From assembly GCA_964030475.1 (NCBI GenBank), contig CAXIPT010000004.1, positions 5,651,009-5,715,008 on the forward strand: a stretch of DNA of 64,000 bases, in the 5' to 3' direction. Shown here piece by piece: positions 29,701 to 57,540 of the stretch; the stretch's first letter is position 1, and every line of letters begins with the position of its first letter. The translations under genes were made by a program, and so were the position numbers. Source of the stretch: Tethya wilhelma (Eukaryota; Porifera; Demospongiae; Tethyida; Tethyidae). The notes under the pieces were generated by a model. That model had not been told where the DNA came from. It was given only the letters and a program-made list of their open reading frames with translations, and made no database searches.

Positions 29701-32700
29701 GCTGCAGTGTACGTGGCATTAGAATAAATGTTAATTGTTCTGACGACCATTACCGATTAGCTGCAGCTGCCTTTTACCATGACGATCCTTACCAAAAAGT
29801 ATGCAAATCATTGTTGTTGAGTGTGACCAATGAGTCTAGTCAGCATTGTCATCAGTACAACCTCAGAGGCTTGATCTGCTTTGCTTGCATTGTCTTTCAT
29901 TGCTCTGCATGCTCAGTTACCATTAATTGTAGATGAATCAACACTCAGTCCTAGCTCAGGATACCATGGATCCATAATCATATCCCACAGCACTGTTTCA
30001 GTCCCATAGCTGTATATTGCAAAGAGTTAACAATGAACCATGCTCAATTCATAATGTATCTTTACGTATGCATTGATATATACACAGGAATTCAAAACCT
30101 TCAGAGTGAGGTTTATCGTGATGTATATGTAAATGCTTTACGGGATCCGAAGGGTTTCACTGTTGATCTTCAGATTCTAAAAATGATCCTCTGTGGTGTG
30201 CCTCGATCAGGCAAGAGTACTTTCTGGAGACGACTCGTGAGTGAAAACTTTGACACTGACAAAATATCGCAAAGTACAATTTTAGCTGAACATCATTACA
30301 TCCATGTGAGTGTAAAGTCAGCAACGTTTGCAGTTAGTGAAGCTGCCTCAACAACTGACGGTGATTTAGTGTATGACTGGCATCTCTGTAGCGAAGATGA
30401 TGGCTTAGCTTCCAGCATCCACCAAGATCTTGACAAAGAAGCTTTGGTGATATACAAGAAGATATTAGAAACTCGGAGTGCTAACATTTTGACCAATGAA
30501 CAATCCAAAACTGATGCAGTGGTATCTGCAGCCCCTGTTACAAAACGACAAAAGTTGTCTAGTGAGCCTTTAGGCGTGGCTGTAGAAAATGTGCCTGAGA
30601 CTCAAGGCTTACCTAAGATTGAAATGTTCCAAAAAATCGATCAAATATTTGACAGACTAAAAGATCGTCTTACAAATACAGAAGAAGTACCAGATATCAA
30701 TGGAATGTCAAAGATGTTTAATCTGATAGATACAGGTGGTCAGCGAGCATTCCTTGAACTGTTGCCTGTATTAACAATTGGAAAGGCATTGTATCTAATA
30801 TTCTTTTCGTATGCTGATCATCTGAGGAACACACTTCAAGATAAGTACCAAGGAAAGAGCAAAGCTTTTACACTCGATAATCATTACAATCAACTTGATG
30901 TTATCTTACAGTCACTAAGGTGTGTGTCGACAAACACTTTTTTAGAAGATGCCTTGATTGAAAAGAAAGACACTCAGTCTGATGTTACAGCCTTACTAGT
31001 TGGTACTCATACAGATTTACCATGTGATCAGCCTGGCATTAATGGAAGTGTAGATAAATACATCCAAGGGCAAGTAAAAGGCTTCATAGAATCTGAAATT
31101 TTAGAATATGCTAAAATGAGGCAGTTAGTGCTGAGAGTAAACAACAAGACAGAAGATGAGGCAGAATTTAAAGCTTATCGAGAGCTGCTAACAGAAGTTG
31201 TAGACAGGAAATTTTCTGATAGTGCTAAGAAGTTACCTGGTGCATGGTTGATGTTTAGTATCATAGCAAGGAAGATGAAACATGCTGGTTATTCTGTATT
31301 GCCCTACGAACATTGCGAGTACATTGCATCTAAACTATTCATTCCGTCTGCTGCATTAGAAAGCTTGTTGTATTTCATGCACAAGGATCTTGGTATATTG
31401 ATGTACTTTCCCGAAGTCCCTTGCTTGAAGCGACTTATTATTTGTGATCCAGCTGCCGTTTTCACCAGCATATCTGAAATAATAATAAAGACATTTATTG
31501 AAGATGTTACCAAGAAATCTAAAACTGGTATTAAACAGTCTCATTGGTTTATAGAGTATGCAGTGTTTTCGTACGAAACTGTCAATCAACTCACAAAAAA
31601 GAAGCGCAAGTCACTTGAACTAAATACTTTACTAGTACTTCTTCAACACACTGGAATCATTGCTCCTGTTGAATTCTCTAACCCTGATCCCGATTTAGAA
31701 TTCAAGTGCACATTGGTTCACGACCATCAAGAAGACTCGCTACACTGTATTCACCGAGAATACATCATCCCTTGCGTGTTAAAGGCTGCTTCAAAAGATG
31801 AAGAAACAAGAATTAATGAGCACTATCGTGATATTGAATCGATGGTTGCCCCACTGATAATCACCTTCCAATGCAATTTTGCCCCAATGGGTGGATTTTG
31901 TTATCTGTTTACAAAGTTGATCACAGACCAAAGAGAAAATGGATGGAGCCCTCATTTACCTGATGTAAACTCGCCAGATGATTGCCCAATCGAGAGAATC
32001 ATTCGAAGAAACAAAATCACTTTTGTTATTCGTGGAAAGTTTTTTGTTACATTAGTGTCAACAGCTCAGTGCTACAAGGTATATGTTGAACACCGAGAAA
32101 ACAAAAACCAGCTTGGATACGAGTTCATTTGCTATGAAGTTCAAAGAGCCATTAAAGATGCACTCTCAAATTGCTTAAATTCCCAAGTAAGAGATTTCAA
32201 CTTAGCCTTCCAATGTAAAGGACACCAGGAAAAGACAGATTATGAGCAAAACGAACATTTGATGATTCTTTGCCGAGATTTGAACACTGAATCAAATAAG
32301 ATTGTCGCAGTATGTCAGCGAGACGATGCTGAAGTAAATGTTATGGATACCTATACTCATGCTCTAATGGTCTGGCTTCAGGTAAGATATTGACCACATG
32401 CATCTATACAGATAGAGTAATGGTGAATCTTGTCCCTGTATAAATTTACAGTCTCAAACTCAACAGCGTGTTGCTTTTCTTGCATGATTCCAGAAGTGCA
32501 TTTTTGGCAAATATTTACACAATAATAATTGCTTGTGTTTTTTTTTGTGTGTGTGTGTTGTTTTTTAATAAAGGGTCCCTTTAGACTCGTAACTAAGCCG
32601 CTCTCTGATCAGCTAAACTCCATTGACGATAAAGTACCATATGCAGAAGAGATAAAATTAAGTGTATGTACATGTTCCACCTGTAAGTGTAACTTTCAGT

Positions 32701-38600: not shown

Positions 38601-41317
38601 TCCTTAACAATGCATGCATCATGGAAATGGTCAGGTTGCTAGATTTCTAGTAATGTACATGCATGTGTTCATGGTCATGCAGTAGCCTGTTAGCCTCGTT
38701 CCCAGGCTCCTCCTTCGCGAATATTTTCTTCGAAAATAAGGAAGGAGAGAGCCTGGTACCAGTAGTCACGTGAGTGACGTACTGTTTTACGTAATTCAAG
38801 TTAGTTAGCAAGAGAAAGTTTCCTGGGAGCGACCTCGATCTTTCAGTCTGACCAAACCAAGGTACAAAACAAAAGCAACGATCACAAACGCTGTTTGGGA
38901 AGTACATCTTAACTCTTGGCACACAAGAAATGACTTTGAACAAGCAAATGGTAGTTTTTTTCAAGCATTTTTTTGTTCTGTTCTGTTCGCGATTGGACAC
39001 AGAACCAAAAATGCTGATTCAGAGAGACTGCCATTTATCTGTTGCTTCTTGGACTGTCTTTGGAGACTACTGGCTGCTTTTTTCTTGTCTATTCCCATCG
39101 TCTTCTACGTCTAGCTCTCTCAGAGCTCGTAGATACGCAAAAATTTTTGCCAACATCAACTGTACAGACTGGAACACGTGCGTGACGCATTTTAGATAAA
39201 GCGCGTAATGCTGAGTAGACTCACGTCTACCAGACGTCTACCCTGTACGTCACTCACGTGACTACTGGTACCAGGCTCTCTCCTTCCTTATTTTCGAAGA
39301 AAATATTCGCGAAGGAGGAGCCTGGGAACAAGGCTAGTAGCCTGTCACTCGCTTTTCTTTGAAATAACTATTGTGTGTAATGTATAAGTGCATGGAATCA
39401 ATATAGGCATAAGATAAGGGAATTCCACTAAACTGCATGATCATAAGTGTATTCATATTTCTGGTTAAATTGGTAATTTATAGCTAGATTTCATGTGGAG
39501 TATATTTCTAGGTATCTAGCTCTTGTTATAATTAACTTCATGCAGTGAACCTGATGATAAACATGTTGTACACTATGGATAAGATCAGAGACCAAGCTCT
39601 ACTCCTAGCCATTCGGCCCCTCAAAGTTGGCTCAGCAAAACTCTCCAAACATTACTACAAATATGCTCCCTCAAAACAGTAAGTATGTTGATTGATTGAT
39701 TGATTGATATGTAATAATAGAGGACTGAGTTCTATAGTTGTAGTAGCTTGCTGATAACATACCCAATCATGGTGGACGATAAATTAATGCCTAACCTTTA
39801 AGTTCCGATTCAGTTATACAAGTAAGAAATATTCTTTATGCAGCGAATGCTCGTGTATGTGTATGTTTGTTAAATTCTTTTGTTATAGATTATTTGACCA
39901 TGGTGTTCAGCACAATGAGATTGAACTGAAACTAAAGGACAGAGGTATACGACTCTGGCCTGTTGATGAGAACAAAGGCATCCAGTTCTTTTGTGGAAAG
40001 GTTCCTTGCGTCTTTGAATTCTCAGCTTACCGTTACAATGGAGCGAGAATAAAAAATAACTCCATGAGAGCTGTAAGCGTTTCGAACAAAAATCAGAATC
40101 GTAATGGCTCACGTTTGCCACCACCAAGCAATGATATCGGCCAACCTACGTTTGATCAAAGTTCTCATCAACAATCCACTCACAGAGAACATACTGATGG
40201 TGGAACTGAGATACACAGTTCTGATGGAGCAAATTTTGCCGAATCTGTTGATCTTCCGTACGAATCGAATGAACGCTTGCATACTGATTCTGTAGTTTCT
40301 TCCGAAACAAGTGGCTCTTCTCGTGACGAGATTGACGAGGAATCTTTTGATAGCCAGGAAAATTTAGCCACTCAATGGCGATTGCCGTCATCTACAAAGA
40401 CAGTGTCTGCAAAAACCCAGCCTGGTGAAGTTAGGTCAAGCCTAGGTGCTGCCACTCGACTTGCTACAGCTGTACTAGCTCCACAAAGTGTACCAGCAAT
40501 AGCAGATGGTCAAAGTCTGATGAGTGGGGGTGCTCAAACCGCTGAGAATGTGCCAGCTCTGAATTTTCAAAGTATATCTACTAATTTAGTTCTCGATAAA
40601 AATGCTCGTACTGCTAGTTCCCAACAACCACTGCGTCGTGCCGTACAAGATCGTTCTCGTTTTATGGATGCCCGCGCCCAAGAACAAAAGCCATGGATTC
40701 CGATGAAGGCTCACCATACTGATAGCCATAGAGCTTTGTTGGATAAATTCCCACAGGCTCAACCTCCAGACAATCAACTAGGAATGATGGATTCTCCGAC
40801 AACTCCAAACAACGATCAACCGATTTATACCTTTCCCGATCAACCAAAGTTAGATCTTGCAGCTGATCATTTAACTGACTACGAGATTCACAGTGGTGTA
40901 GCTTCTCACTTCAGTCAAACAGAAACTCTTGAACGACAACCTACCAAATCGTCACCACTGCGGCAGAAGACAGAGAGTCTCGAAATTGATGCCACCGCCA
41001 ATAGCCATCAGAGTCCTGCTCCGGATGCTGGCAATCAACCTGGATCAGAATCAAGTGAAACTGGTCACATATCTCGTCCTAGAATCAAGAGTCAGATGAG
41101 TCTCAATCATAACGAAATAGTCAATCAGGTTTTGTCGAATCAAGAAAGTACTGATTCGGGAATAGTATTTTCTCCTAATGCTGAAGCTCCTGGAGATCTT
41201 GAGACTAAGTTACGAAGTGTTGCTGGTGATTCTCCCACTGTGCCAAGTTTATCGGGCAATGTGGTTGTACCAGCTCTGAATGAAGAAGAACATAATCTAT
41301 CAGATTCTGAAGTCTAA
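35698..41317 (+). CDS. Pannexin/LRRC8-like four-TM channel with novel C-terminal region, paralogue 1
   Basis: Exons 35698-36813, 36822-37016 (after an N gap), 38230-38379, 38461-38557, 39546-39678, 39889-41317. The start ATG at 35698 follows a pyrimidine tract; the next ATG is adjacent. The channel part has TM1 (AILALTVLNVSV), first extracellular loop with CFPPPDT and YVNNYC (Cys70, Cys101), TM2 in YFPIYILVHGILLVAPHYIW, TM3, second loop with two Cys (FDCPGG, TIPCVY) and a glycosylation sequon NVT, and TM4 ending GWCFVRHT. Two Cys per loop and the CF-P / YC / FPY-like words are hallmarks of pannexin, innexin and LRRC8 membrane domains. The cytoplasmic part has no LRRs. It carries ISFGSIGYALVLARPFKR and LLLAIRPLKVGS, both shared with paralogue 2, then a Ser/Gln/Asp-rich disordered tail of about 400 residues. 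The exons between 36813 and 36822 are missing in the gap. Confidence 0.8.
36814..36821. other. Hidden assembly gap replacing several exons
   Basis: The donor GTGA of the first exon, a single N (36818), and the acceptor CAG of a later exon are only 8 bp apart. In the paralogue the equivalent interval (42701-44660) holds four coding exons. So roughly 180 codons and about 2 kb are probably missing here. Confidence 0.85.
37017..38229. other. Intron of channel paralogue 1
   Basis: 1.2 kb, AT-rich. It contains GTGGCGTAGCCAGGGAGG near 38016, a word typical of dispersed repeats, but no element boundaries that I can fix. Confidence 0.5.
38691..39336. mobile_element. F3 element, copy 2, with 9-bp TSD
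   Basis: TIRs of about 85-90 bp: TAGCCTCGTTCCCAGGCTCC at the left and the complement ending GGGAACAAGGCTA at the right, with CGAATATTTTCTTCGAAAAT inside the arm. Flanked by GTAGCCTGT on both sides (38682-38690, 39337-39345). Inserted in an intron of channel paralogue 1. No transposase in the 450-bp core. Confidence 0.9.
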
Positions 41318-41611
41318 TGCCATAATGTGTGGATGCATGAAACTTAGCTGAATCAAGCCACTTTTTTTTTTAAACATTGTTTGGCAATTCAATAACTGTA
41401 GCAGTGTACGTGTATGACTGTGTGTTTATAAGATCATGTTCTGTACCCTATGGTTTGTGCATGTGCAGTCTGCTCAGGTTATCAAGTTGTATGTTGCGGT
41501 ATAAATCAATCATAGATTATGACCTCAAATTTTCATATGGGAGGTCGCTGAACTGGATCCCGCGTAAAAGGCGGGCCGCAGTTCACCGCAAATTCGATTA
41601 CACAATGTAAA
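41318..41611. other. Spacer between tandem channel genes
   Basis: 294 bp between the stop of paralogue 1 and the start of paralogue 2. No TATA box at a clear position. CCGCGTAAAAGGCGGGCCGC lies about 40 bp before the start codon. Confidence 0.6.
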
Positions 41612-44600
41612 ATGGCAAGCTCTGCAGTAGCAGCTGTCCAAGATCTTCTTAGCAATGCGGACAAGAAGAAAGACAGCAACGATGCTATAGAGCCTAAGGA
41701 CTTCTTCTGGGACCAATTTCACAAGTACATCAGTTCGGCTATACTGGCACTCACAGTGCTGAACGTTTCTGTGGACCTTTTGCGTGATGGAGGAGTTGTA
41801 TGTTTTCCACCCCCAGATACTGATGATTTGCTCACGAACAAGCTTGTTTACGAGTTTGGACGAGACCAGGCAAAGTATTTGAACAACTATTGCGCCAGGA
41901 GTGTGCCCATAACGGAATACTTTCCCATTTATATCCTGGTTCATGGTATATTTCTCATAGCTCCCCACTATATCTGGAATGCCATAAATAAGGGAGATTT
42001 TGACAGCTTCTTTGCCATTGCTGAGAAGTTTGACCGATTACGTGACTACAAGACTGGAGAATATGGAGAACAGAACTTTGACCGTGTATCGAAACTCGAA
42101 TTTGAGTACGGAGGTAAAAGACGAAAGATTTTCATCTTCTACTTTCTCAAACTGTGTTTACAAGTACTTGTCTGTGTTGGTTCCATCATTTTTAGTAGCC
42201 TCTACTTTACCGACTTTTCATTTTCATTTTCGTGTCCTCGAGATTTGTCTGAAGACAGCTTCTCCATGGGTTGGCCTCTGAACGTCACTGTACCATGTGT
42301 CTACACCAGTCTGAGGATACTCAGCCTGATTCGCTATGCAGACTTCATACTTGTTGGTATAGCCTGTCTGCTATCGCTGTACGGAATAGGGTGGTGCTTT
42401 TTTCGTCACACCAGTGAGCTTGGGCACATAGAAATTGCACGATTTCAGTTCCAGTCTGGTTTAAACGCCGACGATTTCGTCTTTCCATCAGTTATTTCGT
42501 GGCCTAGCCATCGGTACTGCTGTTGTAAGGAAAAGAAGAAGAATAGGCCTCCGTTCCTTAGACCATTGGTGTGGGTGTTTACTCACTATCCTCGGATTCG
42601 TAACGTCTTCTCTCCTCGGATAAAGAGTGACTTTGACTTTCTGATCATGAGACTGTTCAGGGCTGATCTGAGTCATGGAAAAGTGTTCAGGGACATCCAA
42701 GTGAGTGCACAGTGACACCATATTCATTGTAAGGTGTAGTCATAGATCTAACAGGATCAAGATGAATATTCCTGTTTCTAAGCCACTCCCATTCTGAAGA
42801 AGTAGTGATAGGGTTGACCTATTAGCCTAATGAGGGTACTGAGTTCACCCAGGATAGCAATGTCAACCCTGTCCATCTCCTCTGATTCCCAGCTTTCTGC
42901 TAGATTGTTAGGTGTGACACCGCAACATAACCATCAGCATAAGTAATACCCAGGCTATCCCCTAGCTCCACTCCTGATTATAGCAAATGTATTAGTGAGG
43001 TTCATACAGAAATGGAAGTAGATCTAACATGTATTGTGCCATTTGTGATGCCATTAGGTCATGACTTGATAATTATTTTTCTCCAGGTGAACAAGGAACT
43101 CAAGCGTTTGATTGGTAGGGATCACCAGTTGTTGCATCTTTACATCAACATCCAGAACAACATGAGAGACAATGTTGGGGTGCCACTCACTAAGAAGAAT
43201 ACTCCAAAACAAAGAGTGGAAGAAGGTAAACCTCAACATAAGATCTGGTACCTGTGTGATAAGAGCTCACTAGCACTCGAAATAGCCAAATTAAGAGCAA
43301 TCATGTTTTCAGTAGTTAGCAAATGCACTTCATAGATATGTACAGTGAATCTGTTTGTCTTCTTCATGGTCAAGTAATATTCAGGAAGTGATTCAGTGTT
43401 TAAGCTGTGTGTTTTCCCTTCATTTGACACTATCAACCTTGAGCTGAATAATCCCCCAAGATTGTTTTTTTCTCAGTCACCTATTGTAAGTATATTTAAA
43501 CGATATGGTTTGCTCTCACACCTTACCCAGAAAAAGGCTGTTGTGGATATTTAAGACGACTCTTCTGTAATTGGCGGTCCCATGGAAGACGCACTAGACA
43601 ACAAGAAACTGTGGAAGTTGATAGTTCTGTACAAACCCAAACGGTGACTGATCGAGGAGGTCCAGGTTACACAAATCCAGCTTACTTATCAGCTCAGGAA
43701 TCACTGGAAAGTGAGTACTCTTATTGTTTGTAGTAAAAAATTGAGTAACTGTTACTCCTGCATGTGTGTTTCCAGTAATAATTGGAGGACATAGTAAAGT
43801 TTTTGTTGTAGTGTTGTGTGTGTAAATGCATTTGAATAAATTCTACTTGTTTAACTGTAACCGTTCATCCTTAGATGTAGTTTTTTTTCCTTTTTTTTAG
43901 TGCCGACTAGCTTACTGACTTTTTTTTGCAAACACTTGACTAGTACATTGTACTTATTGAATTTTAGCTGAATCTCAAGTTTCTTTTGAATCTTTCTTCT
44001 CCTTCTACTTGTAGATCGGCTGACTTCTACAGAAAGTGAAGCAGATGGCCGCTCACAGACAGGTACATTAACTGTGTGTTAAGAGTGAGTGATGTATTAT
44101 AGAGTTGGGCTATTTAGCGCATGTACTTATTGGGATAATAGCAGAAAAGTATTTGCTAAATAAAGAGAACTAATACAAGACCACGCCCCCAAATGTATGA
44201 TGTCATTAAGCTAGTTCGAGCTAGTGCTCGAGTGCGTGCAAGCGCTTGAGAATTAAACTCCTTTTTTCAATCAAAACACAGAGCCAAACTGTCAAGGAAA
44301 TGAAAGAAGGCCATATATGCGCCTAATAGCAAATATACGCTAAGTAACAAAGGGTGCCGAATAACCCAACTCTGTGGTATAGTTAAATATATTGTATTGT
44401 AACACAATTATGTATTGATTCAGGCTCAGATACTGAAAGTGAAAATGATGATGACTGGCTTGAGGAGACAGACAATGCCGAACTCATTGGAGCAACTAGG
44501 GACTTTCATCAAATCTTTCTCGATTCCGGATTCACTTGTAACCCAGAGAAGCTTGCCTTCAACTATTTCAAAGCCTTTCTTGGAAACGTCCAGTTCTTTG

Positions 44601-47018
44601 AGGTTGGTTGCAGAATACTCAAGAATGAAAGAATAATGTCATTTTTCTTTCTACTTGTAGGAAGATTTCAGTGGTTTTCGAGATTGTTTTTACTGGTTTT
44701 TCCAGTTTCTTCCAACTTACAAAGGGTGGTCAAGTGTACCTGATGGAGTAATTCCAAGAAATGACCTTGCTCTGGACGTGTCATTTGGCTCACATGGATT
44801 TGCTCTTGTACTGGCCAGAGCATTCAAAATGGTAATATTGAATGGTAAAGGGACGTCAGAAATACTTGTGCATTTTTGTATTTTTTTTAAATTTTTTTTT
44901 TTAGGTGATGTCCCTAAATTTTCATCCTTATTATCGTAACGCTGCTAGTCAAGAAGCCTTTTACACCAATCATGTGACATTTACTTTACCAGAGAATATT
45001 TACACTCAAGCTGATCAGAATATTACCAAGGTGAGATGTTCGATCAGTTGTAATGATGGTTCTTTAACACATACACACGTACATTTTGTGTGACAAGATT
45101 TTACTTTTGGAACTTATATATAGGCCACAATGCTGGTGTTTGACTATATTCGTAAAGGTCCGGCTGTAGGCAGGACATTTGATTTCATCCTAATCGGGCC
45201 AATTGTAGAAGAAGCAAAGATAGTCAGTGGTAAGGATACTAAAGTGCTATGTGAGTGAGGAAATTATAATTATTGTGAAAAAGTCCAGCCGATTCAACTT
45301 CCTCTGATCCCATTGCAATCCATTATGGTCGCATGACAGCAGAGGTGCTCCACAAATTTATTTTTCTAAGGTGGCTGGGGATATCAAGGGGAAGCACTCC
45401 CCTTTGGCACTAAACTTTGAAATTACTTACAACTTATAGCCTATTGATCCTCCTCTATCGTGCTTTACTTACCATTAGCATATTCATTTCCTGTATCCCT
45501 TTGTGACTTGGTTGTGTTGCCATGACGATGTAAGTAGTGTATGCAGCAAATGTAGTTGATGACCCTGTACCATTTTATCCAAATCTTATTGTTACCTTGT
45601 TTTCTATTAACATGAAATGGTTTCTTTATACAGCTAACCTTCTCATTGATAATCTTTGCACTGTCGATAACCATGGTTTCGTTGGAGAGGAGGCCCTGCT
45701 CATTGCTATTAGACCACTCAAAGTGGGCTCTAGGAAGTTAACACAGTACTACCACAAGTTTAAACCATCTGAACAGTATGTCATGTAGCCTGATTCCCAG
45801 CTCTCTCCCAGTGAATATTTATACACACGGGGCTTGCAAAAATAGGAAGAGAGAGAGCCTGGTACACGAAATCACGTGAATGACGTTGCCCGTAGACAGA
45901 GTTTGTATGGTTTCTCTACTACAGCATACTAATTTTTTTGTGCGCTACGTCATTCACGTGATTTCGCATACCAAGCTCTCTCCCTTCCTATTTTCCAGTA
46001 TGTGATATTCAGGGAGAGAACCTGGGAATGAGGCTCTAATATGTTATGTATTTGAGTGTGTGTATATATGTGAGTCAACACAATGTGAGTACACCACCAA
46101 CTTTTTCCAGGCTTTTTGAGAATATTTCGAAAACCGAAGTTCTTCCTAAACTACGCAAGGCTAAAGGTGTTCAGAGACGTCGAGTTGACCACATACGAGG
46201 CATTGAAGTCAAATGTGGAAACATACCGTGTGTCTTTGAGTTTGCTGTGTATCGTTACAAAGTGAAAAGGCCGGCCCGTGTTCATCTGCAGGGAGATAAG
46301 AACCGTTCGCAGGCTCGTGGTGGTGTTACCGAACCAGGTGGAGCAAATACTGATTCTAATGCTCAAGCTGTTTCTAATGACCAAGCTCAAGTTCAAAGAG
46401 AAGGTGCATACCATAGATTGTATTTTTAAAGATTTTCATTTGTGAGGCCTGGTACTATGTAGAGAGTGTTATAGATGTAATTTTTTGTACATGTAGGATT
46501 CACTGCCCATTCTGTTGCTAGAACTGTTCAAGTTCCAGTTCAAGGAGAAGGTGATATGTGTAATGCAGTCTAACTTATTGCTCATGTATACCTATGTGTA
46601 TATACAGTATGTTTGGGTCTTTAGCTTGTCACAGACTGTTCAGCTTTTTTTTTCTTTTTTATTTTCTTGGTGACATACTATTTTAGGATTCTCTGAGATA
46701 ACAGCTCATCCACAAAATGGCCATCCTCCACTAGGTGCAACCAACGAGAGACTGAGATCCACAGACTCTGGTGTGTTTAGTCCTACTTCAAATGATACGC
46801 AACAGCCCTTTGAGCAGGTGAATAATGAACAACCCTTGGAGCAAGCTGAATCAGAGGCCACCATGTCTAATACTCCAGCAATAAGCAGTCAGTCGCCTTC
46901 ACACGGGAGCCAGTCTGAGTCTTCTGAAGATAGTTCACTGACAGCAGCAGAGCACAATGACAGGTGTACTAGTAAGCCACAGGATGATGATGATATAAAG
47001 AGCCATTCAAGCTGTTAG
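41612..47018 (+). CDS. Pannexin/LRRC8-like four-TM channel with novel C-terminal region, paralogue 2
   Basis: Twelve exons, phases all consistent: 41612-42700, 43087-43225, 43531-43710, 44015-44062, 44424-44602, 44661-44831, 44905-45030, 45124-45229, 45634-45775, 46111-46403, 46497-46550, 46687-47018, giving 952 aa. TM1 about 39-57, TM2 103-123, TM3 175-199, TM4 242-264. Loop cysteines are Cys64, Cys94, Cys208 and Cys229, with sequon NVT at 224-226. Conserved words with paralogue 1: EPKDFFWDQF, GRDQAKYLNNYC, KGDFDSFFAIAEKFDRLR, ELGHIEIARF. The cytoplasmic region has a Cys-rich GCCGYLRRLFCNW segment, an acidic stretch (ESENDDDWLEE), then the shared C-terminal domain (DVSFGSHGFALVLARAFK, FDFILIGPIVEEAK, LLIAIRPLKVGSRK) and a Ser/Gln/Glu-rich tail. 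No LRRs. Role inferred: large-pore channel or volume-regulated channel relative with a distinct sensor domain. Family placement is moderately sure; function is not shown. Confidence 0.85.
45786..46039. mobile_element. F3 element, copy 3
   Basis: TAGCCTGATTCCCAGCTCTC at the left and the complement ending GGGAATGAGGCT at the right, with internal ACGTCATTCACGTGATTTCG present in both arms. Flanked by TATGTCATG (45777-45785) and TATGTTATG (46040-46048), a 9-bp duplication with one mismatch. It lies in an intron of channel paralogue 2, only a few bases after the donor. Confidence 0.8.
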
Positions 47019-47331: not shown

Positions 47332-47505
47332 TCAAATGTATCTTCTCTTTGCAAATGGGTGTGCAGGACATTGATTCTTGTTAGTGCAATCTTCACACAG
47401 TTTATGTGTTCCACATTGGAACTGACTATAGTCTCTTGTGGGGACTTGTCTGTTGCAACCTGGGCAGGGGGGTAGCCTTTCTGGTTCCTGAACTGTTGTT
47501 TTACT
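47332..47505 (-). CDS. Gene A terminal exon A2 (RING-like Cys/His module)
   Basis: Acceptor TTATCAG, phase 0, stop TGA at 47332-47334, AATAAA about 90 bp downstream. Cys/His spacing is C-x2-C-x12-C-x2-H-x2-C-x2-C-x5-C-P-x-H, close to a compact RING or zinc-knuckle pair. Its closest relative in the window is exon B7. Confidence 0.7.
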   Translation of the reverse strand, partial: SKTTVQEPERLPPCPGCNRQVPTRDYSQFQCGTHKLCEDCTNKNQCPAHPFAKRRYI

Positions 47506-49740
47506 CTGATAAATGTGTGTAGAAAGTGAACAAAATTATGATTAGGTATTATTTCAGTATGCCTTATTTTGTTAATTTTCTATAGCTAGGCTTTAATTGA
47601 AGTTCAATTATGTGACCAGATCAACTGAGCATGTGTGCATGCTGCAAAAGCAAGAGCAATTACTTGTTACTTCTCATGCAAGTTTGCTTTGCTGAGTATT
47701 ATACTGTACTCTTTTCCCAAGAATTGTTACAATTAATGTTTGCTCTATAGGGTGTCTAAGAGTCGATGGACCTCTAAATTTTTTCCGGCCTCCCAAAAAT
47801 ATAGAACATACGTAAACCATATGAATTCACATTTGTACATGTGTACCGTTGATTGTGATTAAGTTTATAAACATACCATTGTAAAAGATATAGGGCACAA
47901 AATTGTGGACACTTTACTAAAATTTCTAGAGCAAACACTGATTGTATGTTCACATTATCAAAGTTCAATTATTCATCATATTTTTAGCTTAACAATAGTT
48001 AAAATATTAAAGTGCAATTGTAAATTCTAAAGCTTAAAATTAAGAAAAAACCAACAAACTATTAAATGCAGCTAAAAATTTAGAGTTTTAGTTCTGTTAG
48101 TGATGGTCAGGAAATCTCTAATATCTCTGACAAGCATCTTTACTTTCAGTTGAATCTTTCTTCAAACCGGGCCTTGCTTCAAAGAATGTGGTGTACAAAA
48201 GAGGCTCTGGTGGTGGAGGTGGTGGTTCAGCAACCCTTACTGTGGTTGAGTATTGAGACCATGAGCTGTACGGGTATGATGAGTATGTATGTTGCTGTCG
48301 AGGAGCTGTTACTACTTCAGGAGGACCAGGTGGTGTTTCTTTTTTTGCACCATGTCCAAATGGACACGAAATATAAGCTTTATAGCACTGGTCACACATT
48401 GTAAACATGTCATTGCAGCCATAAAGCACATTATCGTGTGCATATTTATCAGAATGGTTGCAGGCCCAGTATTGTATTCGCTGTTTAAAAAGTACATAAG
48501 TATACAAAATTGGATGAACATCTTTTTTTTCTTATTTATTTACCTATTAATTTTATCATTATTACTATTACTTTTTATAATTGTTTTATTTTTTTGCAGT
48601 GAGCTGTTCGTTTTCATCAAGTTCCTGTGGTCTGCTATGCCTGCTGGCTTTTGTGACATCATTTTGAGGTGAACACTTGCTGTACACAACTATTGAATTA
48701 GCTATAAATAAATTCATTGTTGCTAGGCAGCACAAGTGGCTATCTCTCTGAAGTAGCTAAAGCCATGCATCAATGTACTTGTCCATGTATCCATGTAAAC
48801 TAGTATCCTTTAGAAGGTGTCTACTTTTTCAAAAAGGCAATTCTAGATACTTGTCTACTAGATATTGAATTAAGTACATGCCACTATGAATATCTGCTCT
48901 GCACCTGTTCAAATGCTTGTCCCAAGTAGACTAATGTGCAAGTGTGAAGTGTGCAGCACTTCAATTTTCCCCATATCTTGGCTGTACTTACAAGCTGCTA
49001 AAGAGGTCATTGCTGACTCTAAAACAGATTCAGAGCACTTACTGCACTTACTGCAAGCCTGCTAAATAGCCCAAGTGCTCTTGGCCACTTGGCACAAGTA
49101 CTTGATGAAGAGGGCCAGCTTAACTGGCACTCAAGTTACTAACTGTGTACACTAAAAATTATTATGGAATACTTTTATCAAACAATTTGCTTGTGTAGAT
49201 GAAAACATAAACATTGCTGCATTCTGCATTATGCATTAAGTATTCAATTGTTTTATACCTTTCCAATGCTGCATGTAGACCCATGCAAATAGTTATGCAT
49301 ACATTGATATATTTCTAGCTTGTATCATGCACTTATGTACATGTAGGTTTGTGCGTGTCATGCAAAATCTTACTGGGTTGCTTGCCATGGCTGATGTGTT
49401 TGCTGTTTTTTTCTACATGTATTGTTAGTGTATGTATGGTGGAGAATTAACTTTCATGCACTGTAAAGTGGACAAAACCAATTTTTCTAACAATAATGCA
49501 GTCAAAATAGTTTTGCAGAATTTTTTTTTTTTTTTTTGCACTCACCAGTGACTTAACGTTTGTAGAAAATGCTCCTTTGTATGTATAGATCTGCTGGAGA
49601 CTTTGGTTGCACAGGATAATAACTTTTCCTTGGTAGTTTTTTCTCCGAGATTGGGTTGGTGAAGAAGTGTCCGAGCTGAAGGTCTGAGTTTTGCGGCTTC
49701 TCTAATCCATCTGATGCTATTTCTTTGTCTTTTTATACTA
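47332..49740 (-). CDS. Gene A: leader exon plus two alternative-looking terminal exons with Cys/His domains
   Basis: Minus-strand unit: TATAAAAA at about 49737-49730, non-coding first exon ending at 49546 (GTGAG donor), leader coding exon 49388-49374 (MASNP, donor GTAAGA, phase 0), then two phase-0 exons with their own stops: 48480-48118 (120 codons) and 47505-47332 (57 codons). Joining the leader to either gives 125 or 62 aa. The first domain has the pattern W-x-C ... Y-x-C ... C-x2-C-x6-CP followed by a Pro-rich tail. The second is CPGC ... FQCGTHKLCEDCTNKNQCPAH, a C2-CH-C2-C zinc-binding pattern. The two exons cannot be read through in one mRNA because the first ends in a stop and lacks a donor. 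Gene B nearby has the same plan. Function unknown. Confidence 0.65.
48118..48480 (-). CDS. Gene A terminal exon A1
   Basis: Acceptor TTTAAACAG, phase 0. Begins RIQYWACNH, then YGCNDMFTMCDQCYKAYISCP, and a long Pro/Tyr/Ser-rich tail to a stop at 48118. Unlike exons B3-B6 it has NDM in place of the GH after the second Cys. Confidence 0.7.
   Translation of the reverse strand, partial: RIQYWACNHSDKYAHDNVLYGCNDMFTMCDQCYKAYISCPFGHGAKKETPPGPPEVVTAPRQQHTYSSYPYSSWSQYSTTVRVAEPPPPPPEPLLYTTFFEARPGLKKDSTESKDACQRY
49374..49388 (-). CDS. Gene A leader exon MASNP
   Basis: ATG GCA AGC AAC CCA directly followed by GTAAGA. A CATCAG acceptor lies 2 bp before the ATG. Matches the MADP leader of gene B in length, phase and donor. 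Confidence 0.65.
49730..49737 (-). promoter_or_regulatory. TATA box of gene A
   Basis: GTATAAAAAGAC on the minus strand, upstream of a spliced non-coding exon that ends at 49546. Gene B has CTATAAAAAGAAG in the same setting. Confidence 0.6.
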
Positions 49741-50660: not shown

Positions 50661-50789
50661 TCATTTTCTATGAGCCCACTTGTGCACTGGACAGAGCCTC
50701 TTGTTTGCACAGGCATCACAGAATCTGTGCGTCCCACACTGAAAGACATCGACTAGCTTTGTTGGCACTTGTTGCTTGCAACCTTCACA
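50661..50789 (-). CDS. Gene B terminal exon B7 (RING-like Cys/His module)
   Basis: Acceptor CTCTGCAG. CEGCKQQVPTKL, FQCGTHRFCDAC, CPVHKWAHRK, stop at 50661. Same subtype as A2, and like A2 the most distal exon of its array. Confidence 0.7.
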   Translation of the reverse strand, partial: CEGCKQQVPTKLVDVFQCGTHRFCDACANKRLCPVHKWAHRK

Positions 50790-53700
50790 CTGCAGAGAAA
50801 ATATTAGCAGCAATGTGGTTAGTAAACAATTGTAAACAGGTAGTAGTGAATATAGTTAATAATTTGTGTGTCACTGAGATTTGAAACAACCCAATTATCG
50901 TGCCATGATACTTATTCACTCATTTTAATTCAAAAATTGTATACAATTTTCAAACAATACAAATCTCTTATAATGCACAAAGAATCTATCAATAGTCTTT
51001 TCAAGTTCAATCTTGATAATTATTGATATTTAGGAAACTTCTTAGTTGCATAAAATGTTGTGTCTGCTTTTCCTCTTATATCATCAGGGTTGTAATCATC
51101 ACTGTCTGCCCTTCTACGTGACCCACATTGCCATGGACACCTTGTGTAGCCATTGTAGCATGCATGGCACATTGTGATAATGTGCCCACATTGGTATTCT
51201 ACGTCAGTGAAGTGTGGATGCCCATGATGTTTTGTGCTGTAACATATCCAGTATTGCCATTCTTTCTGAAATGGAAAAGAATTACAATCAGCAAGAGGTG
51301 AAAGTTTAATATTGACAGAATATTATCCACCGATCTACATATAGTGATAGTTAAACGTCAGCTACTGGAGTAAAAAAAAATCTAAAAAGTATAATTGTGA
51401 AAGTTAGATGTAAAAGTTCATACAGTAAAAAAGCTGACTATAGTAATTCAGTCTCGATATCGAAGAAACTTTTTGATAGCAAAAAATTTTTTGTCTCGTC
51501 TGCGTCCTATAGGCTTTGTGTCATATTCACAGTCTGGCATTCTATGTGCTGCACGGTCCCACTTGCAGTGCTGGTAATACCTGTAGCACGCAACACACAT
51601 GTTGACAATGTGTCCACATTTATATTTTACTCGTAGGATAGTCTGATCTGGATAGTATTTTGCATTGTAGCACTTCCATTCTTCCCATACTTTCTGAAAA
51701 TAATGATAGAACAACAACAAACCATACATTCAAATATATAGCAAGATGCTGGGATCAATATACTGTAGAGACTACTCATTCTTTGTGTGTGTATTTTCTG
51801 TGATAAGTCATTTTTTTGTAAGGTTGTGGTTGATTGTACATAATTGTTTGTTTTATCATTAGTATAACTATTTTCATATTAGGATAATAAATATAGCAAA
51901 CATCTATTATGATAAAAATTAGTTCATAAAACTGTTAAAAAAGTGCTAAAATGATGTATAATACTGTTAGTTATTTGTATTGAGGAAATTTCTTTGTGCG
52001 ATAAAACCACTGGCATATAGGTCGACTAGTATCCAAAGAATATGTCTCGTATTCACTGTTAGGCCTTCTGCGTGCCCAGCTATCCCACGGACAGGTTGTA
52101 TCATACTTGTAACAGGAGTAACAAGAAGTGAAGACGTGTCCGCATTGGTACTCCACGTTGGTAAAATGTGGAAGGTCATAAGCTTTTTGGCATTTCCAGT
52201 GTTGCCAAACTTTCTTCTAAATTAGGAAAAGAGAATTTGTTTTATATTGAAAATTCTAAAGAGAATAATTGTAGTATAAAGTTTAATGTGTGTACAATGC
52301 ACTTGTATACAAAATGCTCATTAAAAATCTGTTGTGAAATATATTTCTAACAAGAGTTTTATAAAAAAAAATTGTGTGATCAAAGTCCATATCTCTTCTG
52401 TGGCAAGCCCAAGTCTTCAATTGCTAGAATCCAAGGCACAGCCTGAGATTTCAATTTGAAGGGTAGGCATATTTACAGTAAGAATGTTGTGAGTAATAGG
52501 ATGGACGGTTGGCTTCAGTTCCTGGTTGTCTACGAGCTGGGTCTCCGAATGGACAACTTTTGAAAGTGTTGTAGCATGCTACACATTGCGTGAAGATATG
52601 TCCGCACTGGTACTCCACCCCCCTGTAGCTGTACTCTTCACGATTTCTAGCTCGGTCACATGTCCAGTACTTGTACCGCTTCTATTACATACAAGTGAAG
52701 TTTAGTGTATAGGTAGCAAGGCCATTCTTTTAATGCTTTTAAATGAACATATTATGTGTTTGTACTAGTTACCATGGAAAAACTGAAAGTGGACAATTTT
52801 AACATGTATTTCTAGTCATGCTAAACTATCTTTGTTATTTAGTGAAACTAACAATTCCACTAGTACTTGGCACCCTCTACTGCTGGGAAGAATATTGTAT
52901 TCTCCAAGGAGCTTTGGGAATGGAGCTAGTTTGAAACACTGTTTCCCAGTCAGGCTGCTTGTGAGACAGACACCCAAGAAACACATTCAATTGGTGTAGG
53001 CTTCATTGAAATGTGGGCAAAAATTGAAGCGATGTCCACACTGATACTGGACCTCGGCTTTAAAGTGGTCATTGGTGTGGTTACATGCCCAGTGCCTCCA
53101 TAATTTTGTTAGATCAATGGTTGGTTTAGTCTATTGTGGTGGAAAAAAATTATTTCAGCAAAGGCACAAATCAGTTCTTTAACACCTATGTACATGTATG
53201 TACTTGTGCATTTAACACTGCCCCTATTTTACTAATAGTCCTTTGCTAGATATATTCCTAACTTTAAATGTTCTAGGCATCAAGCTTAAAGTACTAGCTA
53301 CGACCAAACGGATGCAGTGGACAGTGGTTCTTGTACTTGGAGTAGCAGGTGTCACACATGGCTATCTGGTCTTGGCATTGATAGGAGACGGTATAGATCC
53401 AGTCATTCTCATGGGTACATGCTGCGTAGTTGTCCACAATGCATGTGACATCTTTAGCCGGCGAAGACTCGAGTTTTGGTAGCTTGCAATTAAAGTGGGA
53501 AAAGGGTTATTTATTAACACGATTTTGTAGTCATTGACCCAACCATAGCATTGTTTCACTCAGTGTGCACGCTAGTTTTATTAGCTGGAGAGTTTTATTT
53601 TGCTGTTTTCACAATAACTTACAAGTGTTATTTTTTATACAACTGTCATGTATTGTACACAGTATAGTAGTGGTTACCTTTAAAAACCCACGAGCATGTA

Positions 53701-54480
53701 CTCACACAACCACAATTGCTAAAATGTATTTAATAGACCCAATTATTGATGCTTTGTGCAGCTCTAGGGTTCATTTTGCTAGTTTGTAGCACCTTATCTG
53801 TCTCTTGCCCAAATTAATAAACTCTGATTATGCATTTCATCCCTACACTACTTAGCTTGTATGCATGCATAAAACCTATCCTGTTTATTCATGGATTATT
53901 TTCTTTAATATTAAGTTTTTGTATTCCAACTATTTATAGCATGCTGTCTTTCTACTTGTAATCTAGTTTACTACTTTGCAATTTGCAAACTGTATGCATA
54001 CTTTTGCATGCTAAAATTACTGAAGAGATTTTGTAGTATGTATTCTTATGATGTCTTACCGGATCTGCCATAGTTCTTGCTGTTTCTTTAACAAGATTGG
54101 TCTAAATCTAGAATTGAAAATAAAAAAGAATGTTTCTGACTAGTAGCGTACAGTATAGTGATATATAGTTAAGACCCTGGGTTACAGCCATGCAATGAAA
54201 CTTTCAATGCTTATGTTTAGACTAATTACTCCCTTCACATTAATGAGGAAAGCAATAGTTGTCATTCAATCCACACTCTGTCATTTCTCTAAACTGTCTA
54301 ATTTGTACTCACTGAGAATAGCTTGGACTTTGTTGGTCGACAAACACTTTACAGATCGGCTTCTTGGTGTTTCACTTTTGGTGCAGTGAATTCTGAGATT
54401 TCTTTCGATGTCTTTCTCTTCTTCTCCGAGTGCTGCTGTCCACTTTTTTCTCTTCTCTCGTTAATTTCTTCTTTTTATAG
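50661..54480 (-). CDS. Gene B: leader exon plus array of seven phase-0 terminal exons
   Basis: TATA box at 54480-54471, first non-coding exon ending at 54313 (GTGAG), second exon 54101-54060 with 5' UTR and MADP (ATG at 54071, donor GTAAGA). Then seven exons, each with its own acceptor, phase 0, a Cys/His module and a stop: B1 53482-53294 (62 aa), B2 53130-52987 (47), B3 52681-52451 (76), B4 52216-51971 (81), B5 51693-51448 (81), B6 51265-51020 (81), B7 50789-50661 (42). None has a clear donor before its stop, so each would be an alternative last exon joined to MADP. B4-B6 are exactly equal in length, indicating recent tandem duplication. The pattern W-x-C-x(16-20)-Y-x-C-G-H-x(5)-C-x2-C-x6-C predicts zinc binding. 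No ATG starts the exons, so separate genes are less likely. Expression evidence is needed to settle isoforms. Confidence 0.65.
51020..51265 (-). CDS. Gene B terminal exon B6
   Basis: Acceptor CATTTCAG. KEWQYWICYS, VEYQCGHIITMCHACY, CPWQCGSRRR, ends FYATKKFPKYQ. 246 bp, as B4 and B5. ATTAAA on the minus strand about 90 bp after the stop. Confidence 0.7.
   Translation of the reverse strand, partial: KEWQYWICYSTKHHGHPHFTDVEYQCGHIITMCHACYNGYTRCPWQCGSRRRADSDDYNPDDIRGKADTTFYATKKFPKYQ
51448..51693 (-). CDS. Gene B terminal exon B5
   Basis: Acceptor TTTTCAG. KVWEEWKCYN, VKYKCGHIVNMCVACY, CKWDRAAHRM, ends FFAIKKFLRYRD. 246 bp. ATTAAA on the minus strand about 140 bp after the stop. Confidence 0.7.
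   Translation of the reverse strand, partial: KVWEEWKCYNAKYYPDQTILRVKYKCGHIVNMCVACYRYYQHCKWDRAAHRMPDCEYDTKPIGRRRDKKFFAIKKFLRYRD
51971..52216 (-). CDS. Gene B terminal exon B4
   Basis: Acceptor AATTTAG. KKVWQHWKC, VEYQCGHVFTSCYSCY, CPWDSWARRRP, ends FYRTKKFPQYK. 246 bp, closest to B6. Confidence 0.7.
   Translation of the reverse strand, partial: KKVWQHWKCQKAYDLPHFTNVEYQCGHVFTSCYSCYKYDTTCPWDSWARRRPNSEYETYSLDTSRPICQWFYRTKKFPQYK
52451..52681 (-). CDS. Gene B terminal exon B3
   Basis: Acceptor GTAATAG. KRYKYWTCDR, VEYQCGHIFTQCVACY, CPFGDPARRQ, stop at 52451. ATTAAA on the minus strand about 170 bp downstream. Confidence 0.7.
   Translation of the reverse strand, partial: KRYKYWTCDRARNREEYSYRGVEYQCGHIFTQCVACYNTFKSCPFGDPARRQPGTEANRPSYYSQHSYCKYAYPSN
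52987..53130 (-). CDS. Gene B terminal exon B2 (shorter, degenerate module)
   Basis: Acceptor CACAATAG. LWRHWACNHTND, VQYQCGHRFNFCPHF, then stop. The second CxxC is CPHF and the final CP is missing, so the module is truncated or decayed. Confidence 0.6.
   Translation of the reverse strand, partial: TKPTIDLTKLWRHWACNHTNDHFKAEVQYQCGHRFNFCPHFNEAYTN
53294..53482 (-). CDS. Gene B terminal exon B1
   Basis: Acceptor ATTGCAAG. Longer N-terminal linker, then CTHENDWIYTVSYQC, MCDTCYSKYKNHCPLH, stop TAG at 53294. QDQ replaces the GH after the second Cys, as in A1. Confidence 0.65.
   Translation of the reverse strand, partial: LPKLESSPAKDVTCIVDNYAACTHENDWIYTVSYQCQDQIAMCDTCYSKYKNHCPLHPFGRS
54060..54101 (-). 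CDS. Gene B leader exon MADP
   Basis: Acceptor GATTTAG, 30 nt of 5' UTR, then ATG GCA GAT CCG followed by GTAAGA. Phase 0 matches every exon of the array. Confidence 0.65.
54471..54480 (-). promoter_or_regulatory. TATA box of gene B
   Basis: CTATAAAAAG, about 160 bp before the donor of the first non-coding exon. Resembles the gene A box. Confidence 0.6.
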
Positions 54481-56076
54481 TTTTACTATTTCACAACACA
54501 AATTCCTACAAACTAGCCTACGTACGCAGAAAGTTACTGGGAACTACCCGATATAACTCCCCTACCTGCCGATAAGGTGCCAATACGCCCACTTTTTTGA
54601 CACAAACAATCTTGACGTAGGTCTAATAGTCGCTAAAAACCCGTTTTTCGGGAAATCACCTACTGAACTGTTAGCACTAAATTGCGTGCTTTCATGCGTA
54701 CCAGTGCATTTATTGTTTATTCATAACATTGCGTATTGCTGGCTTCAGCACACTAGGCGGCCGGCGCACTAGTCCAGGTGATGGACACGTCATTGTGTTA
54801 ATCTTGCGATCTACTACGATGGAATCTTCTCGAAGCCTTTCCTGTCCATGTACATGTACCATGGTGTGTGTCCTCTATTGGGTTCATGTGGAGTGGGTCT
54901 TTTTGTTGTGTGTGCAATGAGTGGCATTGAGACAAGAAGCAAGATGGTATTCATGGCGTTCAATCCCTAGAAGTGAGCTCCTCCTCTGGCGGCAGACTTA
55001 TTTCCACTGCATGTCCCAAACTACATGTATGATGTACACACACCAAGTATGAATTTCATTGGATGCTTGCACTGAAATGCACTTTATTATTATTATTATG
55101 TTGCATATGGTGTTACAGTGGCTTCTCTCACTTTTTTCCTCCTGCTTTGTTTTTGTGTGAAAATTTGAGAAATGTCTGCTTGTGGGAGAGATGGAGAGAA
55201 AGAGAGCATAGCTTCTCTTTGTGTGTGTTGAGATGTCTGTATTTCATCCCTTTATGTGTTTGATGTTGGACTAGATTTGTGGTGGTGTTAAGATTTTTGT
55301 GAGTGGAGCATACATAGCTAGTTAGCAAGCATTTGTCCTGTTATGGGCACACACACTGTTGTCATAGAGACCTGTTGTGTATTGATATTGAAATCTTAAA
55401 GGCATAAATTTCAGGGGATTTGAGAATTTGCTGTAAAATTTCGACTTATTTTTTCATTGCTATTGTGTAAAATGCTTATAAATATTGTCCATGTTGTGTT
55501 GTGTGTGCTTCTCTTAGTTTTTAATTTTTGTCTGCACATGTGTGACCTTTGCACCCCACATGCATAATTCATGAAGCTATATCCATAGCACATGTGTGCA
55601 CGTGAGTGCATGCATGATCTTCATGCATATATTCACGAGGGAGTTTCCCTTGTATAGTTAGCGTAGCGAACATATCTGAGTAAATTTCAATTTTTCATAA
55701 TGATGTGTAATAATTGTTAGCATGCAACCATCCATCCATGCATAAGAACAGTTTTTTTAATGATGGCTATTGAAATTTATAATTACAAAAGCAATAAAAT
55801 AATTATGTAATGAAAGCGGTTCAAAACATACTGTAATATTGTGTAATGTGTACATGTATTTAAGCGATTCTGAACCGCCAAATCTAAGATTAAAAGTGAT
55901 GTACAACAGCTCTCCATTTATCTATCAGCCTAAAGCATCTAAAATTGTTTTTTTTTTCCCTGTAAAATAAATGCAGCACTATCTTGTTTAGCTATACTCT
56001 TAGTAGCGATAAACTTGCTCCATAAACAGTTTTTCCTTCAACTTTCTTTTTCTTTCTCTGTCCAAAAAAAAAAACC
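54481..56076. other. Spacer between genes B and C
   Basis: Contains the HSE-like dyad TTCTCGAA at 54837-54844 upstream of gene B, an ATT run near 55090, and GTTGTCATAGAGACC (X-box-like) near 55361. No coding sequence that I can support. Confidence 0.55.
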
Positions 56077-57540
56077 TCAGCAACAGTTCACCTGACTGTG
56101 AACCCTGTACCCTCCACTACTCATGGCACAGGGAGAAGGGATACTGCTGCTGCAGCTGCTCCAAGTGACCGTCGTAGCAAGGCGTGGCTTATCACAGCAG
56201 GTGTCGGGAGGGCCCGGTCGAGTGCCCGCATTGTTCCAAGTGACGGTTGTCGTGTGATCCGTATTGTCATTGCAGTCTGTTGGCTTGGGGTACGACATTT
56301 TGCTCCACGTCAGAGTGGGTGTACTGTCTGTGCCTGGATCGCATGTCTCAGGTGGCGGTGGATTGGGGTTGCCGGGTGAGGAACCAGTCCACGAGAGGGT
56401 TGTGACACTATCGGTGCCGTTGCAGCACGTATCAGGTGGTGGAGAAGACCAGGAAGAGTTGCTGTAAGTCAGAGTCGGGGTGCTGTCTGTGTTATCATCG
56501 CACGTATCAGGCGGCGGTGGAACTGGGTTGCTGGGGGAGGAACCAGCCCACGAGAGGGTTGTTGTACTATCGGTCCCGTTGCAGCACGTATCAGGAGGTG
56601 GAGAGGACCATGAGGAATTGCTGTAAGTCAGAGTAGAGGTGTGTTTCGTAGGATCTTCACTCGTGTCCGGTGGTTTTGGGTGTGTTGAGGTACTCCACGA
56701 GATGGTGGTCGTATGGTCCGTACCGTCATCGCTGGACTCCACTGGACGGGGGTGAGGGGTACTGGCGTAGGAGATGGTAGTGGTACCACTGTCGGTGTTG
56801 TCACGGCAAGTGTCGACAGGCGGAAGGAACCGATCAAAGCTGGAAATGTCCCTCATCGGTTCACAACCCATGTCTGGCCATGGGTAGGTGGAATGTGGAG
56901 GCCGCTGTGTGTGGAGAGAAGGGGAAAAAAATTACGTGTGTTTGATTTATTACAAAATTAATGCCATGGTTGCAATACTTGACAATTCTTTTCTCCTTCG
57001 TTTGTAGCAATTCAGCCTAATAATTTTTTCACATTTTTTTTCTCTATTTTTTTTTCTTCTTACAAGATTTTTCCGTGCTTATACAACTTGGTATTATGTT
57101 CTTCTTACCGTGCACATTTTGTTGTGTCTTGTGTGAGATGTGCTTCAAGCTTTAAGTGGTAGATATTGTGTACCTATTCAACTGCAATTACAAAAGAAAA
57201 AAATTTTTTAGATAGATTTTCATGTGGCGTTCAATTTTTTGACATTTAACTGAGCATGTACGTATGCTGCAGCCTACAATGCAGAAAAATCTCTCCCACA
57301 AATACTGGCTTTAGTGTACCAATCACTTTTCATGCGAACAAAGGGAAATTTCTTATATCTGCATGGAATACTTGTCCCAATGTCCATAACATACGCACAT
57401 TACACATTTCTTCTTACCTTGTTACCAAAATCTCCCTTTTGTTCTTGATCAAGAACTCTACGTTAATTTTTTTTCTTCTCTTGAACAAAATATGGCCGTC
57501 TATCCTTAGGTTCACAAATTTTCCCTTCGTTTTATAACTA
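56077..57540 (-). CDS. Gene C: Thr/Ser/Pro/Cys-rich repeat protein with MCT leader exon
   Basis: TATAAAA at about 57537, first non-coding exon ending at 57418 (GTAAG), leader exon with MCT (57117-57109, donor GTAAG, phase 0), terminal exon 56904-56077 (275 codons), giving 278 aa. The body is about nine imperfect repeats of 24-30 residues with the core DTC-x4-TDSTTTLSW followed by SS and Pro runs. Two repeats have lost their Cys pair (SSDDGTDH, TSEDPTKH). Each repeat would form short beta strands joined by Pro-rich linkers. The terminal segment is Cys/Ser-rich (SSCSSSIPSPC ... VNCC). No signal peptide, so the product is predicted cytosolic despite the extracellular-looking composition. Unlike genes A and B it has one terminal exon. 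No family recognised. Confidence 0.65.

Follow-up and report, generated by a model that had tools for sequence, protein, structure and literature searches.

Sequence layout of a putative alternative-last-exon gene with RING-like modules behind a four-codon leader in a sponge

Genes of the mod(mdg4) kind join a common 5' part to many zinc-binding C-terminal parts. In Drosophila lola, as outlined in PMC5127561, a shared N-terminal part containing a BTB domain is combined with alternatively spliced C-termini, most of them zinc-finger, and the zinc fingers of most of these C-terminal parts bind DNA. Set beside that outline of lola, the locus described here, gene B, is alike in that it too combines a common 5' part with varied C-terminal parts predicted to bind zinc, and differs in that its common part is the tetrapeptide MADP and its modules are RING-like. 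The BTB domain of the lola/mod(mdg4) family was not found in gene B, and because this domain is missing and no more than four codons are shared, we do not regard gene B as a member of that family. What it does possess is the layout of alternative last exons, with one leader donor, several in-phase acceptors, a stop in each segment and no good donor downstream. Among the matches listed from literature on last-exon arrays, exon duplication and sponges, no such array appeared.

If this reading is true, gene B would represent lola-like last-exon choice with the shared part brought down to four codons, so that splicing would exchange whole proteins. A small-protein family would then expand through duplicated last exons behind one promoter and not through duplicated genes, and with four such genes (A to D) in one genome one could compare directly how last exons arise, decay and are retained.

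Layout of gene B and its paralogues

The window, that is, the whole stretch of 64,000 nucleotides analysed, covers positions 5651009-5715008 of contig C4 in a genome of 124.6 Mb, and gene B lies on its minus strand (Table 1). Gene B is probably one transcription unit in which the MADP donor is spliced to any one of several RING-like alternative last exons, and the earlier note's proposal to this effect stands as the best reading, backed by the paralogous arrays of genes A and C, their relative gene D and the tree described below. Transcription would start at a TATA-like promoter and run through a likely untranslated exon into the very short MADP coding exon; the phase-0 donor of this exon would be spliced to one of the last exons, several of them being used in RNA. 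Each last exon would bring nearly the whole protein, as a RING-like predicted zinc module with its own stop; a transcript end would form after each, the choice among them would be regulated, and last exons would be born and lost through tandem duplication.

Table 1. Positions in the window of the features of gene B and of its downstream paralogue, gene A
Feature	Position	Strand	Remarks
Gene B TATA-like site	54472..54479	-	TATAAAAA; genes A and C have similar sites ahead of their leaders
Gene B likely untranslated exon	intron from 54312	-	donor TCA/GTGAGT
Gene B leader exon (exon 2)	54060..54107	-	5' untranslated part, ATG at 54071, MADP
Last exon B1 (type 1)	53294..53482	-	phase-0 acceptor, 84th percentile; own stop
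Last exon B2 (cut short in Cys/His core)	52987..53130	-	acceptor 96th percentile
Last exon B3 (type 1)	52451..52681	-	acceptor 85th percentile; codon constraint
Last exon B4 (type 1), 246 bp	51971..52216	-	acceptor 98.5 percentile; codon constraint
Last exon B5 (type 1), 246 bp	51448..51693	-	acceptor 99.4 percentile; codon constraint
Last exon B6 (type 1), 246 bp	51020..51265	-	acceptor 99.3 percentile; codon constraint
Last exon B7 (type 2)	50661..50789	-	acceptor 98.1 percentile; full RING ligand spacing
Gene A TATA-like site	49730..49737	-	TATAAAAA
Gene A leader, coding part MASNP	49374..49388	-	phase-0 donor GTAAGA, 95th percentile
Gene A last exon A1 (type 1)	48118..48480	-	in-frame phase-0 donor, intron from 48240
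Gene A last exon A2 (type 2)	47332..47505	-	acceptor 95th percentile; strict RING spacing

The leader peptide is encoded by ATG GCA GAT CCG, after which comes the phase-0 donor CCG/GTAAGA (following 54060). Its exon has an acceptor at the 98.1 percentile and a donor at the 99.5 percentile (GT sites on the same strand), as judged with generic splice matrices that were not trained on Tethya wilhelma and on which all splice scores and percentiles given here rest. MADP had been described as carrying the only suitable upstream coding donor, and this was borne out in the stretch scanned, between 53490 and 54500, where it is the sole ATG-led phase-0 donor scoring at least 5; the intron between MADP and B1 held no further in-phase small coding exons at the thresholds used. 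TATAAAA occurs within gene B also at 53639, 52363 and 52246, so the TATA-like site is not specific, and within gene A at 49257 and 48579. The forms TATAAAAG or TATAAAAAG occur 12 times on both strands of 124 kb (one of them, at 48579, preceding A1), which makes their position before three leaders unlikely by chance. A bacterial promoter scan of 54000-54600 proved to be without bearing on gene B.

As the earlier note had it, seven homologous minus-strand segments follow, and all seven run in frame from a phase-0 AG to their own stop, with B4, B5 and B6 at 246 bp each once the stop codon is counted. The modules of B1-B7 are 42-81 residues long. The acceptors had been called good throughout, which holds for B2 and B4-B7 (96th to 99.4 percentile) but not for B1 and B3, where they are mediocre (84th and 85th). 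In none of the nine window exons tested (B1-B7, A1 and A2) does any in-phase site, back to the upstream in-frame stop, outscore the claimed acceptor; the chance of this for a single exon among B1-B7 is 0.02-0.19, and these values are not independent. Within genes, acceptor strength climbs from first to last exon in 21 of 28 pairs (permutation p 0.037, one-sided), a weak but suggestive trend, on which we do not lean, of the kind that later exons might need in order to be reached. ATTAAA is present after B3, B5 and B6, as reported before, and also after B2 and B7, yet of the 13 exons in genes A-C, 7 are followed by canonical poly(A) hexamers against a chance expectation of 6.0, so that ATTAAA is no evidence for exon ends, and we dropped poly(A) signals as support for the array. 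A search for shared intron elements gave two best repeat families that sit in exons, the others being short pairs or triples.

Searching the genome with eight protein queries revealed three further genes, A, C and D, which together with gene B have 14 last exons in all, although exon C3 of gene C, unlike the members found by query, was spotted by reading the sequence. Gene A lies just downstream of gene B and has a MASNP leader and two last exons; MASNP is the sole ATG-led phase-0 donor scoring at least 5 between the gene A promoter and A1, and there is one weak candidate for an extra small coding exon (48994-48905). Gene C, on the plus strand of contig C4 at about 5628255-5631273 and 20 kb outside the window, has a TATA-like site, a leader MASKFEKEEQ, two more phase-0 coding exons and the last exons C1, C2, C3 and C4, of which C3 is cut short and C1 and C2 have weak acceptors (69th and 63rd percentile). 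Gene D, on contig C5, begins with MASKKYIYE from 3934192 and has one last exon, of type 2 (3934694-3934837), in the 20 kb scanned; TATAAAA was absent from the 260 bases examined, and with the sites tried one of the exons of gene D did not come to a whole number of codons, which leaves that part of the gene uncertain. In each of genes A-D the last exon found is of type 2, the earlier ones being diverged type 1. That genes A and C show this layout too suggests that the arrangement is old and functional rather than debris.

Beyond genes A-D the eight queries yielded no convincing loci in the genome. We set aside weak matches on contig C3 (E 3.45), contig C8 (E 0.30) and contig C25 (E 0.0056, to residues 46-98 of exon A1). 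At E 0.001 the genome held no DNA copy of the locus other than the locus itself, and searches of a large protein set gave no relatives in other organisms at E up to 1, a result of little weight if few such animals are in it.

RING-like character of the modules

RING fingers have the ligand spacing C-x2-C-x(9-39)-C-x(1-3)-H-x(2-3)-C-x2-C-x(4-48)-C-x2-C/H. In its strict form this spacing is found in B7, A2 and C4 and in a relaxed form additionally in C1, C2 and D1, while the other 8 of the 14 exons, B1-B6 among them, lack it. The modules, previously described as zinc-binding-like Cys/His domains, are RING-like, with a full ligand set in B7 and incomplete sets in B1-B6. A Cys/His core motif, written after the exons had been seen, has 11 matches in 124 kb, whereas 20 random controls averaged 0.1. 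B7 and A2 are 52% identical, and B7 as a query retrieves A2 at E 8.4e-11.

Among curated profiles, zf-RING_5 and Sina_RING matched at E 0.018-0.055, below their cut-offs, and B3-B6 and A1 had no curated RING profile match. The predicted model of A2 (pLDDT 61.6) consists of a hairpin and a helix, and its best 16 Foldseek rows are RING domains of the XIAP, cIAP2, IDOL and MEX-3C kind, at scores that are not significant; the likeness of the modules to these short RING domains lies in these rows and in the spacing of B7, A2 and C4. The predicted structure of type 1 had a mean pLDDT of 46.5 and was left out of the fold search. Sequences of the PDB gave nothing up to E 1 against the B7/A2 alignment, and five chains up to E 10 against alignment A4 (the best at 0.46, TRAF6 at 4.3).

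Type 2 may be a minimal E3 ligase, and type 1 may supply non-catalytic partners or decoys. A far-reaching version of this idea, which we put forward as speculative and unlikely in its full form, is that behind one promoter last-exon choice swaps nearly the entire protein between complete and degenerate RING, and that this combinatorial ubiquitin-ligase/decoy system has been kept at three duplicated loci on one contig.

Constraint, age and rival readings of the array

Codon-level constraint was evaluated in 22 exon pairs (among B1, B3-B6 and A1; C1-C2; among B7, A2, C4 and D1; with B2 and C3 excluded). Synonymous differences exceeded nonsynonymous ones in all exon pairs listed, most dS values being saturated, and B3-B6 are among the exons in which this constraint was seen. 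Amino-acid identity lay above the randomised mean in 22 of 22 pairs, with the observed value reached by 0 of 500 shuffles in 16 pairs and by 1-6 of 500 in the other six, an excess that is inflated by the protein-guided alignments. When B4 was simulated as evolving neutrally, with 0.5 substitutions per site, frame and stop survived in 139 of 20,000 runs.

Trees of 54-55 columns were calculated from 13 exons (C3 omitted) and from 12 rows (B2 omitted too). The four type-2 exons split from all nine type-1 exons in the first tree with support 98/95, the corresponding split in the second had 97/93, and AU tests rejected one clade per gene for B (p 0.0126), C (p 0.028) and A (p 0.0293); these support and p values need care, since the first tree was already in view when the groups were defined, the alignment is short and some branches are long. 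An independent local expansion of last exons at each locus is thus rejected (p 0.013-0.029, on short alignments), so that alternative last exons are probably older than the duplications that gave these genes. Type-1 and type-2 last exons would, at face value, have coexisted before A, B and C split.

These observations bear on the reading that survives best among the rivals, which we nevertheless regard as improbable, namely that one exon per gene is used, most likely the type-2 one, the others being dead tandem duplicates. The earlier note had raised a row of dead duplicates as its own alternative, and this description fits only B2 and C3 of gene C, both of which are cut short: in B2, of 47 residues, Phe replaces a core Cys and the stop precedes the last core Cys, so that this exon is probably dead. 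Gene D, with a type-2 exon only in the 20 kb scanned, and the weak acceptors of B1, B3, C1 and C2 also speak in favour of a single live exon. Against it, frame, stop and Cys pattern are intact in the type-1 exons of genes A, B and C although their synonymous sites are near or beyond saturation, all 16 within-type-1 pairs lie above the randomised mean identity (with no more than 6 of 500 shuffles reaching it), and the neutral runs of B4 rarely kept what the exon has kept. Type 1 is moreover present at three loci, and the probable age of the alternative last exons relative to the gene duplications makes a single live exon amid dead copies less likely.

A second rival, somewhat less likely still, takes the type-1 exons as internal and spliced to type 2, which would give two-module proteins with interchangeable first modules. 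In its favour, A1 of gene A contains an in-frame phase-0 donor, ACA/GTAAGG at 48240 (95.7 percentile), and the phase of the A2 acceptor is likewise 0; a further donor, of score 7.1, lies past the A1 stop, at 47876. With these two donors A1 is possibly not always terminal, and a two-module A1-A2 protein is possible from the sequence of gene A. In gene B, however, phase-0 donors scoring above 2 within B1-B7 number only two, after codon 21 of B3 and after codon 1 of B5, and use of either would cut the module; donors past the core in B3-B6 are in phase 1 or 2, and B4-B6 share a C-terminal tail as far as the stop. Between the B stops and the next acceptors there were 0 donors scoring at least 6 against 3.9 expected in 1691 nt (P(0) 0.02), the scan past the B7 stop, which has no next acceptor, covering 300 nt. 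The claim that these exons end in stops with no evident donor is therefore upheld, and since no usable in-phase donor follows the module, picking one B exon would exclude the others in that mRNA, in keeping with alternative last exons behind MADP.

That the segments are independent small genes, each with a promoter and a start of its own, is scarcely credible, for although the array contains five ATG-led donors scoring at least 5 in 2.7 kb and TATAAAA at two of its internal positions (52363 and 52246), the density of such donors equals the strand background (1.7 per kb), the gaps of 163-305 bp between B exons are short for separate genes and, as had been noted from the start, none of B1-B7 has an ATG at the exon start.

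Neighbouring genes in the window

The window contains 81 open frames of at least 88 residues, of which 61 were scanned for families; the matches listed (the first 25 of 35 families), together with a further scan, point to a papain-type protease, a Roc-type GTPase and an LRRC8/pannexin-like protein, a set that fits an animal genome. Arrays A and C, like gene D, each have a convergent neighbour (window 46040-46426, plus strand; L010 2056-2853, minus strand; L011 1957-2244, minus strand), and window 39788-41314 (plus strand) was listed alongside them. By eye, the convergent neighbours of A, C and D have a C-x(2-4)-C-x-F-x(4-5)-YxY-like stretch in common. The gene C neighbour as a query weakly retrieved that of gene A (E 0.01) and 39911-40048 (E 0.047), and the same search did not retrieve the gene D neighbour. 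On the minus strand at 56077-56931, a frame of 284 residues is made up of degenerate repeats in which P, T, S, D and C abound, and it had no Pfam match. The Roc GTPase match (E 1.7e-6, with a weak COR-A match) falls in an 812-residue frame at 29955-32390 on the plus strand. Channels of the LRRC8/pannexin/innexin kind are generally described as absent from sponges. The 387-residue frame at 41552-42712 (plus strand) matched Pannexin_like of LRRC8 at E 1.4e-7, above the cut-off, and Innexin at 9.1e-5, below it, and its best PDB match was LRRC8C at 1.4e-5.
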